IMG/VR virus record: IMGVR_UViG_3300030329_003954
Location: 27,107 to 91,106 of that record
Source of the DNA: a virus
DNA length: 64,000 nt
Direction: 5' to 3' (one strand)
The notes under the pieces were generated by a model that saw only the letters and a list, made by a program, of their open reading frames with translations, was not told the DNA's origin and did no database searches. Positions 12,316-59,139 of this stretch are shown here, piece by piece. Both the position numbers and the translations under genes were made by a program. Numbering within the stretch: position 1 is the first letter of the stretch; each line of letters opens with the position of its first letter.

Positions 12316-12903
12316 ATGGTAGATAGTTTTTTAAAGAACGACTACAGAGCGAACTTTGAGCCTGGGAAGAGCCTTCCTAAGATCTCCACGAAGCTCGACG
12401 CTGTAAGATCGTATCAGTTTGAAGTGAAGTTCTTTGGTGTTCCGCCTGAGTTCATCGGTACCCAACAAGTTTTAACTGCTGCTGCGAAGCAAGTCAGTCC
12501 GGTTGGTGGTGCGGTTGATGACATCGTTGTTGATCGTCTTAATGATAAGATGTACTACCCTGGTAAGTTCACGCCTGAGGCTGTCACGATCACCTTTGAT
12601 AATCAGTTATTGACTCAAACCACTCCTGCTCTTTGGAATTGGTTTAAGACAATCTATGATCCGATTTCGGGTGACATGACCAAGCTGGCTGCTCCTGGTG
12701 GTCCTGGGAACAGATCATTCAAGGCTAACAAACTTACTATTCTTGAGCTTGATAACACTAACGAGCCACATGCCTTCATCGAAATGTATGGTGTGTATCC
12801 CACAGGTGTTAGATACTCGGAGAAGAACTACGCCACGAATGATTTCTCCACTGTCGAAGTGACCTTCCGCTACGACTTCGTGGACTACGACAAGATCAAC
12901 TAA
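12316..12903 (+). CDS. 19: Tail tube protein (gp19-like)
   Basis: Forms the inner tube through which DNA passes. It is 195 residues, close to T4 gp19 (163), with typical features: an N-terminal LDAVRSYQFEVKFFGVP segment and a C-terminal YPTGVRYSEKNY ... VTFRYDFVDYD ending. It directly follows the sheath gene and is followed by a hairpin terminator. Confidence 0.9.
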   Translation: MVDSFLKNDYRANFEPGKSLPKISTKLDAVRSYQFEVKFFGVPPEFIGTQQVLTAAAKQVSPVGGAVDDIVVDRLNDKMYYPGKFTPEAVTITFDNQLLTQTTPALWNWFKTIYDPISGDMTKLAAPGGPGNRSFKANKLTILELDNTNEPHAFIEMYGVYPTGVRYSEKNYATNDFSTVEVTFRYDFVDYDKIN

Positions 12904-12971: not shown

Positions 12972-15329
12972 ATGGATAAAAGAGATTTACTAAAAAGGTT
13001 TAGCAAAGTTCACAACAAAAAATTAAGATTGTTGGAACAACAGGATGACCCTCGCATTCAACAGGCTGAGGGTCTTCTCGCAAACATACAATTCTCTCAG
13101 GATCCTACATCGCCCTACTTAAATGTGGGGCAAACCCTAGACGGTAAAACAGTAAAGTACAATCCAAAAAGCGGAAAATTGACAGGGGCAAATAGCTTTC
13201 AAAGGGCTACTTATCTTAATGGGAGGTTAAGTCCCCCAGAGGGTAAAAATCCTGAGGATGCTTTCAATAAAATGATAGGCTACCTTGTTGATGAGGCAAG
13301 CCCTGAAGCAGATCAACCTGTTATTGACCCTGTCTTAGATGAAAAGTTAACTGAATTAGGTGTAGACATAAAAGATCCTGAGTTAGTTCAACCCCTTATA
13401 ACTTTGCTGGATAAAGCAAAGGCTAGCAACGTTGGTCGTGATGGCGGTAAAAACGCTAGAAATCTTGTGAGATCTTTAGTGGCTGATTATCCAGTTGTGG
13501 TAAAAGAAGGGGAATTCTACAGAGTCGAGCCGAGAGAGTCTAGTGTGGAAAGAGCTTTTAATTTAGCTGAGGCTCTCAACGGTATAGGATCCGAAGGTTA
13601 CTGCGAAAGGTTTCAACGCACTGACAAGGGTGACATGGTAGTGTATACTGACTCTGGTGAAGGGCAAGAAGGGACTGTCTTCAGTAAAGGTAAAGCCAGA
13701 GCAATAGCTAACATGATCAGTGATTGCGATGACATTAAGGAGATCAATATAATACAGGAAGCCGCCGAAAGCTTGGGAGGCGAAAGTAATATACGAGGTA
13801 ATACTTTAGAGTATCCCCCAGACTTATTCGCATTAAGTAGAACCTACTTCAAGAATAGAGAATCGCTTACTGAGGAACAACGTAAGAGATCTGAGAAGTT
13901 AATTAAAGACGTAGCACTTAAAATTGAAACAGGGATTAGATCCTTAATCGAAAATCGCGAAACATGGTTAAGGACAGCTAGAGATGCTGCCATCCCACTA
14001 GAGAGCCAAGCTGAGTTTGATAAACTGATGAGTTTGTTGGAAGACAATGGTAGGAATATTCAGGCTTCATTTCATGTGGCTTCCTTATCCAATAAAGAAA
14101 GGCTACCTGATTTATCGGTCAGATCTGGAGAAGTTACTAAAAAAGGTAGGAAGCAAGACTCAGTAGAGATTTGGTATGAGGAGGGTGCAGCTAAAAAAGC
14201 TTTAGATCAGGAGAAGCTAGAAGCTGTTGATGCTAAAGATCTATTCGATAGCCTCAACAAAACAGATTACTACAATGAGTTAGTTGATGCTGGTTACTTA
14301 AAGCCAGGGCAGCAAGTGTATGTGGGTGAGATTAGTTACAAAAACTATATCGCAAATGCTAACACAATTATGGGGAGCTTTTCAGATAATAACACTGGGG
14401 ATTTTATGAGCGGTAACGCTAAAGACAACCCCGTATGGAAAACTTTCACAAAAGAAATAAGTTCGAAGACGATGGCTCAATATCGAGGTGAGTTTGATGC
14501 TATTCACAAAGAGCAGATGCAGATTAGGAAAGAGATTAACTCATTATCGAATAACATAGAGACAGAAGTAAACGGGAAAAAGGTGACAGTTAAAGCTTTA
14601 AACGAGATTATCAAGACCACACTGAACAACATACAGAAGAACTCTACGTTCACAGACACGCAACGAAACCAATTATTCAATAAACTAAGTAAACAAGCTA
14701 CGGCATACAAGAATTCTAAAACTAATAAAGAAAGAAAAAAGATAGAATCTCAAATGAAATCCGCTCTTCTCATGCCTGCGTTAATGAGTAATCTAAAGGA
14801 AAGAGGTCCGCACAATAAGGCTGTGCAGATTTATGCATTAGGCTTAAACTATGCTGCGGGGGCCTCATATAGTAACAACACTGTGTTGCAGACAAACATG
14901 CTCAACGAAGGTATTAGCTACACTACTACTCAGAACAAAGCTTATCAAGAGATTGCAAAGTCTATTAGGCTCAACAATGATTCATGGGATTTAAATATCA
15001 CTCAGAGTGGGTTATCCTTTACTAGGGCGGGTAATAAAAAATCTTCAATCTCTCTAGCGATGACAAGAGGAAACCTACAGTCTAAAAAATCTGACACACT
15101 GACGAGAGAGGGTAAGAAGATAAGATTCCTTGGTGCGGGTGGTGAGAGACGAACTGTTTCAAAAAAACCTAACCCATTAGGAGCAGCAGATACTTCTAAT
15201 CCTGATAGGTTAGCTCCTTATGATAAATTGATCACACCAAGAGAAAGCTTGATGTGGGATGCATTGAACAAACTTCATGAAGCTTTAGGCGTCATCAAGG
15301 AAAAAGTAAGAATCATCAATGTTGACTAG
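12972..15329 (+). CDS. Large protein of unknown function, probably virion-associated
   Basis: A 785-residue, mostly helical, highly charged protein with no membrane segment or recognisable catalytic motif. A Lys-rich central coil lies around residues 520-610. The last 30 residues form an amphipathic helix (ESLMWDALNKLHEALG) like C-terminal tails of other large T4-like virion proteins. It starts just after a terminator and a TATTAT box, so it has its own promoter. The 3' end overlaps the convergent nuclease gene by 45 nt. Virion placement is inferred from location. Confidence 0.6.
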   Translation: MDKRDLLKRFSKVHNKKLRLLEQQDDPRIQQAEGLLANIQFSQDPTSPYLNVGQTLDGKTVKYNPKSGKLTGANSFQRATYLNGRLSPPEGKNPEDAFNKMIGYLVDEASPEADQPVIDPVLDEKLTELGVDIKDPELVQPLITLLDKAKASNVGRDGGKNARNLVRSLVADYPVVVKEGEFYRVEPRESSVERAFNLAEALNGIGSEGYCERFQRTDKGDMVVYTDSGEGQEGTVFSKGKARAIANMISDCDDIKEINIIQEAAESLGGESNIRGNTLEYPPDLFALSRTYFKNRESLTEEQRKRSEKLIKDVALKIETGIRSLIENRETWLRTARDAAIPLESQAEFDKLMSLLEDNGRNIQASFHVASLSNKERLPDLSVRSGEVTKKGRKQDSVEIWYEEGAAKKALDQEKLEAVDAKDLFDSLNKTDYYNELVDAGYLKPGQQVYVGEISYKNYIANANTIMGSFSDNNTGDFMSGNAKDNPVWKTFTKEISSKTMAQYRGEFDAIHKEQMQIRKEINSLSNNIETEVNGKKVTVKALNEIIKTTLNNIQKNSTFTDTQRNQLFNKLSKQATAYKNSKTNKERKKIESQMKSALLMPALMSNLKERGPHNKAVQIYALGLNYAAGASYSNNTVLQTNMLNEGISYTTTQNKAYQEIAKSIRLNNDSWDLNITQSGLSFTRAGNKKSSISLAMTRGNLQSKKSDTLTREGKKIRFLGAGGERRTVSKKPNPLGAADTSNPDRLAPYDKLITPRESLMWDALNKLHEALGVIKEKVRIINVD

Positions 15330-56160: not shown

Positions 56161-56508
56161 ATGAAACGTTTACTAATTGGTATGATCACCGCACTTGTAC
56201 TTGCTGCACCGTCACAAGCACAAAAGCCTCAACGCCCTTCACCTAAAACAAGCTATGAGTTAATAATTGAGTGGAGAAAGGCTATGTCTGACCTCAAACA
56301 AGAGGTTGCTACCCTGAGAAAGGAAGTCGATATGCTTAAGCAAATGGCTCGTAGACTTCGTATGGAGAAGGGTAAAGAAGAAGGAAACAAAGAGAGATCT
56401 AGGAGAGGTCGTAGAGGTTCTAGAGGATCAGAGTCTAAGCCTGATATGAGAAGGAGAGGTATGCCTGAGATGCGTAAAAAGGGACCTATTAAGAGCAAAA
56501 AGGGCTAA
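56161..56508 (+). CDS. Secreted coiled-coil protein with basic tail
   Basis: A 115-residue protein starting with a classical signal peptide (MKRLLIGMITALVLAAPSQA, cleavage predicted after SQA near residue 20). A coiled coil (about 35-75) and an Arg/Gly/Ser-rich tail with RRGRRGSRGS follow. Export to the periplasm is likely. It could bind nucleic acid or surface polymers; no family recognised. Confidence 0.62.
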   Translation: MKRLLIGMITALVLAAPSQAQKPQRPSPKTSYELIIEWRKAMSDLKQEVATLRKEVDMLKQMARRLRMEKGKEEGNKERSRRGRRGSRGSESKPDMRRRGMPEMRKKGPIKSKKG

Positions 56509-56573
56509 GAAAGGTGCAATTAAGGATATAATCCCATTTGTAAGACTATTTCCCATATTTGAGATATAGTCAA

Positions 56574-56612
56574 TAAAAAAGACTTCCTATTCAATTACGA
56601 ATAGGAAGTCTT
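56574..56612 (-). terminator. Intrinsic terminator closing the minus-strand RNA-rich unit
   Basis: A perfect 14-bp stem (56579-56592 with 56599-56612) and 6-nt loop. On the minus strand it is followed by TTTTTTATT. It ends transcripts coming from the tRNA-Arg and repeat region; plus-strand termination would be weak. Confidence 0.85.
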
Positions 56613-56724
56613 ATCATTTCTAGGGGGATGTGATTAGTTATATGTATGGCGCAAAGCTAATTACAACATTATTGCATAAAAGTCAAGCTAATTAAATGCC
56701 CTTGTAAGAAAAGTCAAGGTACAA

Positions 56725-56805
56725 TTATTCGCAATCTTTTACAAATAAACTAAAAATGTATAGAATTAGGAGTACAATTGCTGCACACCTGTAAAATAGT
56801 TCCAT
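56725..56805 (-). CDS. Micro-ORF, predicted single-pass membrane peptide
   Basis: A 26-residue ORF starting 6 nt after the 10-mer copy at 56812. Residues 8-22 are hydrophobic (AAIVLLILYIFSLFV) with charged ends, so a membrane peptide is plausible. No ribosome site. Support comes mainly from its matched placement with the next micro-ORF. Confidence 0.38.
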   Translation of the reverse strand: MELFYRCAAIVLLILYIFSLFVKDCE

Positions 56806-56823
56806 GGTAATAAAAGTCAAGGT

Positions 56824-56913
56824 TTAATTATCACTTGAAACTCTGCAAAGGGACCATATTATAACAGCAATTGTAATCCACAATAAAATTGCAATTAAAA
56901 GACCGTATGGCAT
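56824..56913 (-). CDS. Micro-ORF, predicted single-pass membrane peptide
   Basis: A 29-residue ORF whose ATG directly follows the 10-mer copy at 56914. Residues 4-22 are hydrophobic (GLLIAILLWITIAVIIWSL). The tandem 10-mers 31 bp apart upstream could supply a -35 and a leader. No family recognised. Confidence 0.4.
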   Translation of the reverse strand: MPYGLLIAILLWITIAVIIWSLCRVSSDN

Positions 56914-56962
56914 AAAAGTCAAGGTAAAAATAACCCCTTGCAAGAAAAGTCAAGGTATAAAA

Positions 56963-57039
56963 TGGTACACCCTATAGGAATCGAACCTATAACCTACGGC
57001 TTAGAAGGCCGTTGCTCTATCCAATTGAGCTAAGGGTGC
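56963..57039 (-). tRNA. tRNA-Arg (TCT)
   Basis: Full cloverleaf with encoded CCA. Acceptor GCACCCT pairs with AGGGTGT, the anticodon loop CTTCTAA gives TCT reading AGA, and the T-arm is ATAGG TTCGATT CCTAT. It lies between two 10-mer copies. Confidence 0.93.
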
Positions 57040-57057
57040 CTATGCAGAAAAGTCAAG

Positions 57058-57288
57058 CTATAATAGCCTGCCCTGGGAGTAGATTTTACCCCTATCTGAG
57101 GGGGTTCCACACTTATCTAATGCTGTTACGGTCACCTCGTACCCATACTCACCGTATTTTTTCTTACCCATCCTACGAGCAAGAGAGATAGCTTGCGGAA
57201 AAGTCAAGCTCCAATCTTTCTCAACCTCCTCGAAGAGGACAGAGATGTTATTCTTGGCAAGGTAACACCATTCTATGTGATATCTCAT
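57058..57288 (-). CDS. Small protein of unknown function
   Basis: A 76-residue mixed protein. The start is ATG 57288, which follows GAGGAGG and sits directly after a 10-mer copy; another copy lies inside the gene and encodes Leu-Thr-Phe. Coupled to the 54-residue gene upstream. No family recognised. Confidence 0.58.
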   Translation of the reverse strand: MRYHIEWCYLAKNNISVLFEEVEKDWSLTFPQAISLARRMGKKKYGEYGYEVTVTALDKCGTPSDRGKIYSQGRLL

Positions 57289-57293
57289 AAAAG

Positions 57294-57458
57294 TCAAGCC
57301 TCCTCAAAAGCTTCTGATAGGGTTTGAGCGAGAGCGTAAACATGGTCCTCTACAGAGTCACCATCCTCAAGACGCTCGTAATAATCAGACTCCTCAGATT
57401 GTATCACATACTCTAAGAGTAAGTCAAGAGCCTGTTGCTGCTTGTAGTTTAATCTCAT
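57294..57458 (-). CDS. Small acidic protein of unknown function
   Basis: A 54-residue protein rich in Glu, Leu and Tyr, likely helical. The start is ATG 57458, 6 nt after the TATGAT box of a complete promoter, so it is leaderless. The stop is 5 nt before the next ATG. No family recognised. Confidence 0.6.
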   Translation of the reverse strand: MRLNYKQQQALDLLLEYVIQSEESDYYERLEDGDSVEDHVYALAQTLSEAFEEA

Positions 57459-57464
57459 AGCTAC

Positions 57465-57492
57465 ATCATAACAAAGAAAAGAGAAAAGTCAA
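57465..57492 (-). promoter_or_regulatory. Promoter TTGACT-N16-TATGAT
   Basis: The -35 TTGACT (57487-57492) lies inside the 10-mer copy at 57484. The -10 TATGAT is at 57465-57470 and the ATG follows 6 nt later. This is the best case for the 10-mer acting as a -35 element. Confidence 0.72.
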
Positions 57493-57784
57493 GGATAAAG
57501 GGTGGGGTCGGGATCAATGCTAGCCGATGCATCCTACTGAAAGATGCCCACCGTCATCTCGCCTCACTTTATTTTTATTCGTGTGAGACCTAACCGCTAG
57601 AAAGCTACGAAGAAAAGAGAAAAGTCAAGCCTTTTAGTGACATGCTCAGGTCTCAAGTGGACGCATAGCGCCGTGAACAGTTTTGGACATGTCGAGGTCC
57701 GTTAGAATGAGAAACCCGACAGCGTAGCAGACACCAACTCTTTTAGCCTGATTTGTTGCAACGTGGTTATACGCTACCGGGTAA

Positions 57785-57868
57785 TGGTGGAGCCGGTGGG
57801 AATCGAACCCACGTCCAGGATTGGCCCACATTGAGGTTTTCCATCCTGTCGAAACCATAAACAGCCCC
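57785..57868 (-). ncRNA. tmRNA-like RNA lacking the mRNA domain
   Basis: An 84-nt RNA with both tmRNA ends. The 5' end is GGGGCTG then TGGTTTCGACAGG, the tmRNA D-loop signature. The 3' end is GGACGTGGGTTCGATTCCCA (T-arm) then CGGCTCCACCA. GGGGCTG pairs with CGGCTCC, including G3-U70, the alanyl-tRNA synthetase identity pair, with A73 and CCA. Helix P2 forms from CAGGAT and ATCCTG. Between the halves there are only about 30 nt, where normal tmRNA carries the tag reading frame and pseudoknots. It should be alanylated and could bind SmpB but encodes no tag. Confidence 0.78.
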
Positions 57869-57877
57869 ATAAAAAGT

Positions 57878-58020
57878 AACACCCCACCGGACTTGACCCA
57901 GGCACGCACTACTGCTTACTCATGTAAGACTCCCACTTACAAGACTGGCACTTCGGCAGCGACGCTAGTCTTTTTAGTAGCTCTCTCGGCTACCCCGGAG
58001 TATGTCCCCGGTGAGGTGTT
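57878..58020 (-). ncRNA. Structured RNA with 13-bp closing helix
   Basis: AACACCTCACCGG (58020-58008) pairs fully with CCGGTGGGGTGTT (57890-57878), with two G-U pairs. Internal hairpins include GTAGC/GCTAC, AGACT/AGTCT and GTAAG/CTTAC. CTCACCGG can instead pair with CCGGTGAG at 58060-58053, so two folds compete. A TTTTT run follows, directly before the tmRNA-like RNA. No known RNA family recognised. Confidence 0.55.
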
Positions 58021-58087
58021 GGATTGTGAAAGAACTACGCCCCCATATACTGCTCACCGGGCTACGATTTCATCGGTTTGGTGAGAG

Positions 58088-58172
58088 ACCCGAGAGGAGT
58101 ATCAGGCTGCGGCAGTTCTGGCTTCCAAAGGATTCATACGCTCCGCGCTTGCCTGTCCTACCCCTCTCGGGT
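58088..58172 (-). ncRNA. Structured RNA at promoter-proximal end
   Basis: ACCCGAGAGGGGTA (58172-58159) pairs with TACTCCTCTCGGGT (58101-58088) as 14 bp with one G-U, followed inside by CAGGC/GCCTG. It begins about 3 nt after the predicted transcription start. The apical region contains a short frame ending Ala-Ala-Ala-stop, which loosely recalls a tmRNA tag. No known family recognised. Confidence 0.5.
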
Positions 58173-58181
58173 ATGTCTTCC

Positions 58182-58208
58182 ATTATACATATCTCACAGG
58201 GCTGTCAA
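58182..58208 (-). promoter_or_regulatory. Promoter TTGACA-N15-TATAAT for the RNA locus
   Basis: -35 TTGACA at 58203-58208 and -10 TATAAT at 58182-58187. Its flanks resemble those of the promoters at 60888, 62233 and 63322 (TTGAC-GCCCC...AGGTATAAT). Predicted start near 58175. Confidence 0.72.
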
Positions 58209-58231
58209 CCCAGGGAATCGAATCTTTTCTA

Positions 58232-58300
58232 AATTGATGTAAGTGCTTGTGAATAAAGGACTTATGGCCGTCGCGGCGGCCCGCCCCAAACCCTTTATTT
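58232..58300 (-). repeat. 3' element copy 1
   Basis: The most divergent copy of the six. It keeps AAAGG...CCTTT flanks around a GC-rich hairpin and the ACTTACATC end. It lies downstream of the DUF932-like gene. Confidence 0.7.
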
Positions 58301-58338
58301 GCAAGGGTTTACGGCTGGCAGTTAAAAGTTAGAGCGGA

Positions 58339-59139
58339 CTAGTTCATCCGCGAGGCCCAGTCCTGGGTGATGGCCCAGAGTCCTTGGTTCCAGTCCGTGT
58401 CGGCCACGATGTTCCGACGCTCACGCACACGGCGCAGGCGGTTGTTGGCATCGGGCACCTTGAAGCCTCCACGGGTGCCGTTCTCCTGCACACGGTTGAA
58501 CACCGACCACAGATCGTTGGGCATGTCGTCACGACGACGAACCTGGAGCAGACCCGAGACGATGCGATCGTCTACGTTCTCCTCGGGATCAAGCCCGAAG
58601 CGCAGACGACCAGCCTCGCGGGCAAACTGGCGAACGTCACCGTCCGACAGGCTGGTGCCTTGGCACGTCTCAGCGAAGCCAAACAGGCCAGGAGCCGCAT
58701 CGATCGCACGCTGCACAGCAGCTTGCGTGTCCTCGTTGATACGGTCGTGCCGGATCTTGATCGTCTCGTTGGCAGCACCGAAAGGTGCGATCATGCCGTT
58801 CTCGCACACGAGACGGTAGAGGCCGACAGCCATGATGAACGTCGATGACCAGTTGCCCGAGTTCACGATGTTAACCGTGGGGAAGATCGACCCGAGCTTA
58901 CGGGTGTCGCCATTGTCCGTAGGCATACGCATGGTGATGCGGTGCTTTTGGAAAGCCTCGTTGCCAGCGGTGCGCTTCTGCGTCTTCTGCTGGCTTGCAG
59001 ACTTGATGGTGAACCCGTCGCTCATCATCTGCTCGACGATGTCGGCAGTGCGGACGTGCTGGTATCGGTCGCTGACGTGAGGAGCAGGCGAATCGGAGAA
59101 GGCCGCAGGGGCCACAACTTGCAGTTCTTGGAGATCCAT
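58339..59139 (-). CDS. DUF932-like phage protein
   Basis: A 266-residue protein. The centre VNIVNSGNWSSTFIMAVGLYRLVCENGMIAPFG (about 89-121) is the DUF932 signature found in phages and plasmids (N-S-H/G...R-x-x-C-x-N-G). No enzymatic function is established for the family. Start by TTGCAA-N16-TATAAT promoter, ATG 9 nt after the -10. GC-rich codons like the rest of this arm. Confidence 0.78.
   Translation of the reverse strand: MDLQELQVVAPAAFSDSPAPHVSDRYQHVRTADIVEQMMSDGFTIKSASQQKTQKRTAGNEAFQKHRITMRMPTDNGDTRKLGSIFPTVNIVNSGNWSSTFIMAVGLYRLVCENGMIAPFGAANETIKIRHDRINEDTQAAVQRAIDAAPGLFGFAETCQGTSLSDGDVRQFAREAGRLRFGLDPEENVDDRIVSGLLQVRRRDDMPNDLWSVFNRVQENGTRGGFKVPDANNRLRRVRERRNIVADTDWNQGLWAITQDWASRMN

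Follow-up and report, generated by a model that had tools for sequence, protein, structure and literature searches.

The window, a stretch of 64,000 nt of viral DNA, belongs to a phage record of 91,106 bases. The phage is T4-like, with genes for a major head protein, tail sheath, head protease, DnaB-like helicase, single-strand binding protein and UvsX. The features at the locus under study are all on the minus strand.

57785..57868, minus strand: tRNA-like-domain-only (TLD-only, or mini) tmRNA, 84 nt including CCA (RF00023, 75.1 bits; family model R1, 62.3 bits)
57862..57868, minus strand: 5' strand of the acceptor stem, GGGGCTG, with G3 paired to U70 (sequence and pair counts in relatives)
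57848..57861, minus strand: D-region, TTTATGGT followed by TTCGAC, equivalent to the conserved GGuUUCGAC of tmRNA (sequence)
57817..57847, minus strand: helix H2 capped by a short hairpin, in place of the mRNA-like domain and pseudoknots (RF00023 alignment and folding; H2 covariation in relatives)
57796..57816, minus strand: GGAC linker and T arm, GTGGG-TTCGATT-CCCAC (sequence and RF00023 alignment)
57785..57795, minus strand: 3' strand of the acceptor stem, CGGCTCC, discriminator A73 and encoded CCA (sequence)
57878..58020, minus strand: separate structured leader element, with a 13-bp closing helix around conserved GGGGACATACTCCG and GGGTCAAGTCC
58182..58208, minus strand: promoter-like TTGACA-15 nt-TATAAT (sequence; -10 conserved in relatives L142 and L143)

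Anatomy of the RNA and its leader

An earlier note on this DNA had described the RNA as the TLD of tmRNA without the tag-coding domain. The Rfam tmRNA model RF00023 matches 57785-57868 (-) with 75.1 bits (E=2.4e-27), and the alignment spans model positions 1-374 end to end on 57868..57785 (-). It skips 304 model positions, the mRNA-like domain and pseudoknots, with 13 nt in their place, so that a message domain with resume codon and tag is absent from the window RNA. Read along the minus strand, the 5' half precedes the 3' half in the layout GGGGCTG-TTTATGGT-TTCGAC-(31 nt)-GGAC-GTGGG-TTCGATT-CCCAC-CGGCTCC-A-CCA. The RNA has the 7-bp acceptor stem, D-region and T arm of a standard tmRNA, and both model ends are matched. 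As the earlier note had stated, the acceptor stem (GGGGCTG/CGGCTCC) keeps G3-U70 and is followed by A73 and an encoded CCA; G3-U70 and A73 are the determinants of alanylation. The anticodon arm with a 7-nt loop that defines a tRNA was not found in the window RNA, where the arm consists of H2 and a small hairpin cap, and ARAGORN called neither a tRNA nor a tmRNA there. Thermodynamic folding alone would not single out this RNA (z=-0.52), and the case for it is built on homology and covariation. At the level of sequence, these results confirm a complete tmRNA TLD from which the mRNA-like domain has been deleted and in which H2 is capped by a hairpin.

It is extremely unlikely that this RNA belongs to a full tmRNA with its message domain encoded elsewhere, as in a split or permuted gene. 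Permuted tmRNAs do exist in other phages, and the 310-nt structured leader of the window RNA holds a short ORF, MNPLEARTAAA* at 58102-58137 (-), with a tmRNA-tag-like ending. However, a permissive Rfam scan of 56400-58600 (2.2 kb) found no linked or permuted mRNA-like domain, the best tmRNA_permuted match being 14.8 bits (E=3.1), and a second or full-length tmRNA above the cut-off was found in 0/36 mini-carrying records, many of which are fragments. Since H2 is closed, it leaves no junction to join. Permuted tmRNA (RF04321) also places the 3' TLD half first, unlike the window RNA. The leader ORF, with its Ala-Ala-Ala-stop end, was rejected as a detached message domain because it is missing from the relative L143.

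The locus had also been credited with a promoter of its own. A promoter-like TTGACA-15-TATAAT lies 314 nt upstream of the mini-tmRNA, and the same arrangement precedes the mini-tmRNA leader in L142. Together with conservation of the -10 in L142 and L143, this partly supports a putative promoter, but the spacer is short. At another locus, L149, a promoter-like module (TTGAC, ~15-nt spacer, TATAAT) is repeated about 500 bp apart (12690-12720 and 13228-13257).

Counterparts of the leader element occur in L143 (2137-2243), L142 and L149 (12897-12991). The closing helix covaries among these three, with compensatory changes of the kind AACACCTCACCGG/CCGGTGGGGTGTT versus GATATCCTACCGG/CCGGTAGGGTATC. 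The L149 copy stands before a short ORF without a mini-tmRNA, which argues that the element is independent of the mini-tmRNA. It has no Rfam match in the window and is a candidate new RNA family.

L142 and L143 encode a neighboring DUF932 protein 98% identical to that of the window, and both keep the mini-tmRNA (61 bits in L143; the L142 copy overruns the contig end). L143 has the acceptor stem and T arm of the window but a different H2 stem, TTGCT/AGCAA where the window has CAGGAT/ATCCTG. Because the letters of H2 changed and the pairing was kept, the comparison indicates that the H2 helix matters and its sequence does not.

Extent and carriers of the family

To find further members, IMG/VR was scanned with the pattern TTCGAC-N18..48-GGACNNNGGTTCGANTCC, in which the acceptor stem was not specified. 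At least 120 contigs matched. The architecture of the window RNA recurs in at least 118 other viral contigs with at least 91 further distinct sequences. Among the matches listed there are 94 distinct sequences including the window, and 91/94 have a perfect 7-bp acceptor stem, compared with 8/101 pattern matches in cellular genomes; of the other three, one has six acceptor pairs and two are chance matches. A rarer sub-pattern found 18 IMG/VR contigs, and the first 120 had already included 9 of these; from this overlap the whole IMG/VR family is estimated at ~240 contigs, often fragments. L143 has TTCGATT and AAGACG, and the family is thus wider than the search pattern.

Across 84,980 genomes of bacteria and archaea, the same pattern gave 101 matches. 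Only 7 of these score as minis (53-85 bits), and all other matches scored reach at most 36 bits. Three of the seven adjoin phage head or terminase genes (L188, L190, L249) and a fourth, L219, adjoins a phage-type glycosyltransferase and tRNA genes. With so few minis in cellular genomes and most of them near phage genes, the family is mainly, perhaps wholly, phage-borne.

Five cultured phages carry the mini-tmRNA, and the RNA is unannotated in all of them. Four infect Streptomyces (pSt2308, LuckySocke, BRock and, by blast only, GiJojo) and one is Stenotrophomonas virus Jojan60. No near-identical named phages were found for the window locus, and blast with two other mini variants matched no named phages. 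ARAGORN called a tmRNA at only 3/92 mini-tmRNA loci (L007, L048, L075), with non-canonical tags, and these calls were set aside as probably spurious.

Several other phages were noted along the way. Tunturiibacter phage Tunturi_4 (L134) was rejected as a carrier, since it has a full tmRNA in permuted form; directly beside this tmRNA, at 1118-1879, lies a gene annotated as an RF-1-domain peptide chain release factor. Microbacterium phage Armstrong has an intermediate score of 34.6 bits with the family model R1 and no Rfam tmRNA match. In Gordonia phage GMA2 (L131), a Pistol ribozyme at 1852-1908 exceeds its cut-off with 56.8 bits, and a Y RNA-like match at 1567-1676 is weak, scoring 43.1 against a cut-off of 69. 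Both sites adjoin the tRNA array of the phage and a tmRNA of full length.

Covariation and the G3-U70 pair

A covariance model, R1, of 79 positions was built from 11 family sequences. It recovers 91 family members among the loci at 45-97 bits, with the window at 62.3 bits. In contrast, tRNAs stay below 27 bits, and no phage tmRNA of full-length or permuted form scores above 32 bits. In the model-fitted alignment of 91 rows, 96% of cells pair and 18/23 pairs have double changes. The covariation score is 0.720, versus 0.139 +/- 0.009 for shuffled alignments and at most 0.095 for slid partners; because the alignment was fitted to the structure these values are somewhat inflated, whereas the acceptor-stem count of 91/94 was made without the model. 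Clearly, the RNA is conserved, both in its covariation and in its retention by relatives.

Pairs 1-72 and 2-71 are always G-C in the 91 rows. Pair 3-70 is G-U in 91/91, which extends to the family what had been read in the window. The adjacent pairs 4-69, 5-68 and 6-67 use five or six pair types each, and H2 also covaries heavily. A stem that covaries freely yet keeps one G-U constant bears the hallmark of recognition by alanyl-tRNA synthetase. The discriminator is A in 92/92 and CCA is encoded in 26/92. The GG of the D-region is conserved even though the search pattern did not demand it; the pattern did demand TTCGAC, GGAC and the T loop, whose conservation is therefore partly selected by the search. 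The strict G3-U70 beside covarying pairs argues that charging matters and suggests that it is under selection.

The covariation bears on whether the RNA could be a non-functional remnant of host ssrA, an attachment-site copy or a pseudogene. Phages do carry the tmRNA 3' end as attP (PMC10865867), and the cluster K-type mycobacteriophage Niklas matches at the 3' end only, beside an integrase. An attP copy of this kind holds the 3' part alone, whereas the window RNA has both halves and the halves covary. Tyrosine integrase was absent from 21/24 records tested, and the record of the T4-like window phage has no PF00589 match. An attachment-site copy was accordingly rejected, and a remnant of any kind is very improbable.

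We also considered whether this tRNA-like RNA, charged or not, might act outside ribosome rescue; it could, for instance, donate alanine, bind EF-Tu or a nuclease of the host, or serve in regulation. A tRNA gene lies within 1 kb at 18/92 mini loci. No dedicated partner gene was found; the commonest neighbor family, which from its sequence we take to be probably phage portal protein, occurs at 11/92 loci. The role of the RNA is thus not tied to one gene set, which speaks for such a function. However, the family keeps the tmRNA-specific GGUUUCGAC D-region and GGAC along with the T arm, features that are partly search-selected, and not a generic tRNA body. A role outside rescue is unlikely.

Precedents and proposed function

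A TLD-only tmRNA in a phage is known already. The tmRNA of mycobacteriophage DS6A (tmID 11587) is described in PMC4131195 and PMC11915505 as little more than a TLD, which overturns the view of the earlier note that no such phage RNA had been described. Judged by that description, the DS6A tmRNA is, like the window RNA, phage-borne and composed of a TLD and little else. Both papers relate an experiment (Mao 2009) in which E. coli tmRNA was strongly inhibited by a DS6A-like TLD-only molecule, whether or not it could be charged, and PMC4131195 suggests that the molecule may act by titrating SmpB. The tmRNA database holds 9 'standard, no CDS' sequences among 97,179 (PMC11915505). DS6A is one reported case, whereas members of the family described here occur in many phage lineages. 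A literature search largely confined to open-access papers yielded no report of a broad TLD-only phage family. As far as checked, the breadth of the family, the shared capped-H2 fold and the invariant G3-U70 are new.

Standard (RF00023) and permuted (RF04321) tmRNAs share with the family the G3-U70 acceptor stem, A73, the GGUUUCGAC D-region, GGAC and the T arm. Unlike them, the family has no resume codon, tag frame or pseudoknots, its H2 is capped, and R1 separates the two groups (at most 32 bits for full and permuted phage tmRNAs). The CDS-less mitochondrial tmRNAs, mostly permuted, and the ~65-bp plastid tmRNAs of Mallomonadaceae also have no tag frame, but these are organellar and not virus-carried, and the mitochondrial form co-occurs with a nucleus-encoded SmpB (PMC11915505).

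SmpB was found in 0/36 mini-carrying records tested, many of them fragments. As these records also yielded no second tmRNA, host SmpB would be used. The window RNA belongs to a widespread phage family of TLD-only tmRNAs, and we consider it fairly likely that it acts on trans-translation as an alanylated decoy, with SmpB supplied by the host. Support comes from the RF00023 match with the mRNA-like domain deleted, the 118 or more further contigs, the perfect acceptor stems, the constant G3-U70 beside covarying pairs, the covariation, the H2 change, the want of a phage SmpB and the DS6A precedent. By analogy with known tmRNA biology, host AlaRS would charge the mini-tmRNA, and host SmpB and EF-Tu would bind it. 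The Ala-mini-tmRNA-SmpB complex would then compete with the tmRNA of the host, both for SmpB and for the A site wherever a ribosome has stalled. As the mini-tmRNA offers neither resume codon nor tag, trans-translation would halt there, and host ssrA tagging would be blunted during infection. The likely benefit would be that phage proteins are spared tagging or that host quality control is disabled. In short, the mini-tmRNA probably jams or bypasses host stalled-ribosome rescue. The earlier note had proposed a decoy or, alternatively, release without tagging. The decoy, the likelier of the two, gains from the inhibition reported for a TLD-only molecule in PMC4131195 and PMC11915505.

The inhibition related in PMC4131195 did not need charging, and a strict G3-U70 would thus be superfluous in a pure SmpB decoy. 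Were titration all, G3-U70 should drift among the 91 sequences, and it does not. Part of the function may therefore lie beyond titration: either charging helps the decoy enter ribosomes, or nascent chains are also transferred to the RNA. The latter is conceivable since tag-less mitochondrial tmRNAs, which co-occur with SmpB, are believed to retain a role in dealing with incomplete mRNAs (PMC11915505).

Nascent-chain acceptance is central to a second, less probable explanation that we hold tentatively. Ala-mini-tmRNA with host SmpB would take the nascent chain from a stalled ribosome, and the peptidyl-mini-tmRNA would be released or hydrolyzed, which would free the ribosome untagged and replace trans-translation during infection. 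Such tag-less rescue would explain the strict alanylation pair, as SmpB titration alone does not, because charging is needed for rescue and not for mere titration; a similar route has been suggested for mitochondrial tmRNAs without a tag frame. On the other hand, the sole reported experiment on such a molecule shows inhibition (PMC4131195). A phage-encoded release factor that could finish release, an RF-1-domain factor or ArfB (PF00472), was found in 0/36 mini-carrying records, many of them fragments. Furthermore, a codon-less peptidyl-TLD would be expected to jam the ribosome.

To our knowledge, trans-translation is nearly universal in bacteria and few phage countermeasures are known. A form published as a phage singleton, DS6A, thus seems to be common among phages and overlooked by annotation tools. 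The conserved alanylation pair makes it possible to ask directly whether the decoy must be charged, and the five cultured carriers, four of them on Streptomyces hosts, make such a charging test feasible.
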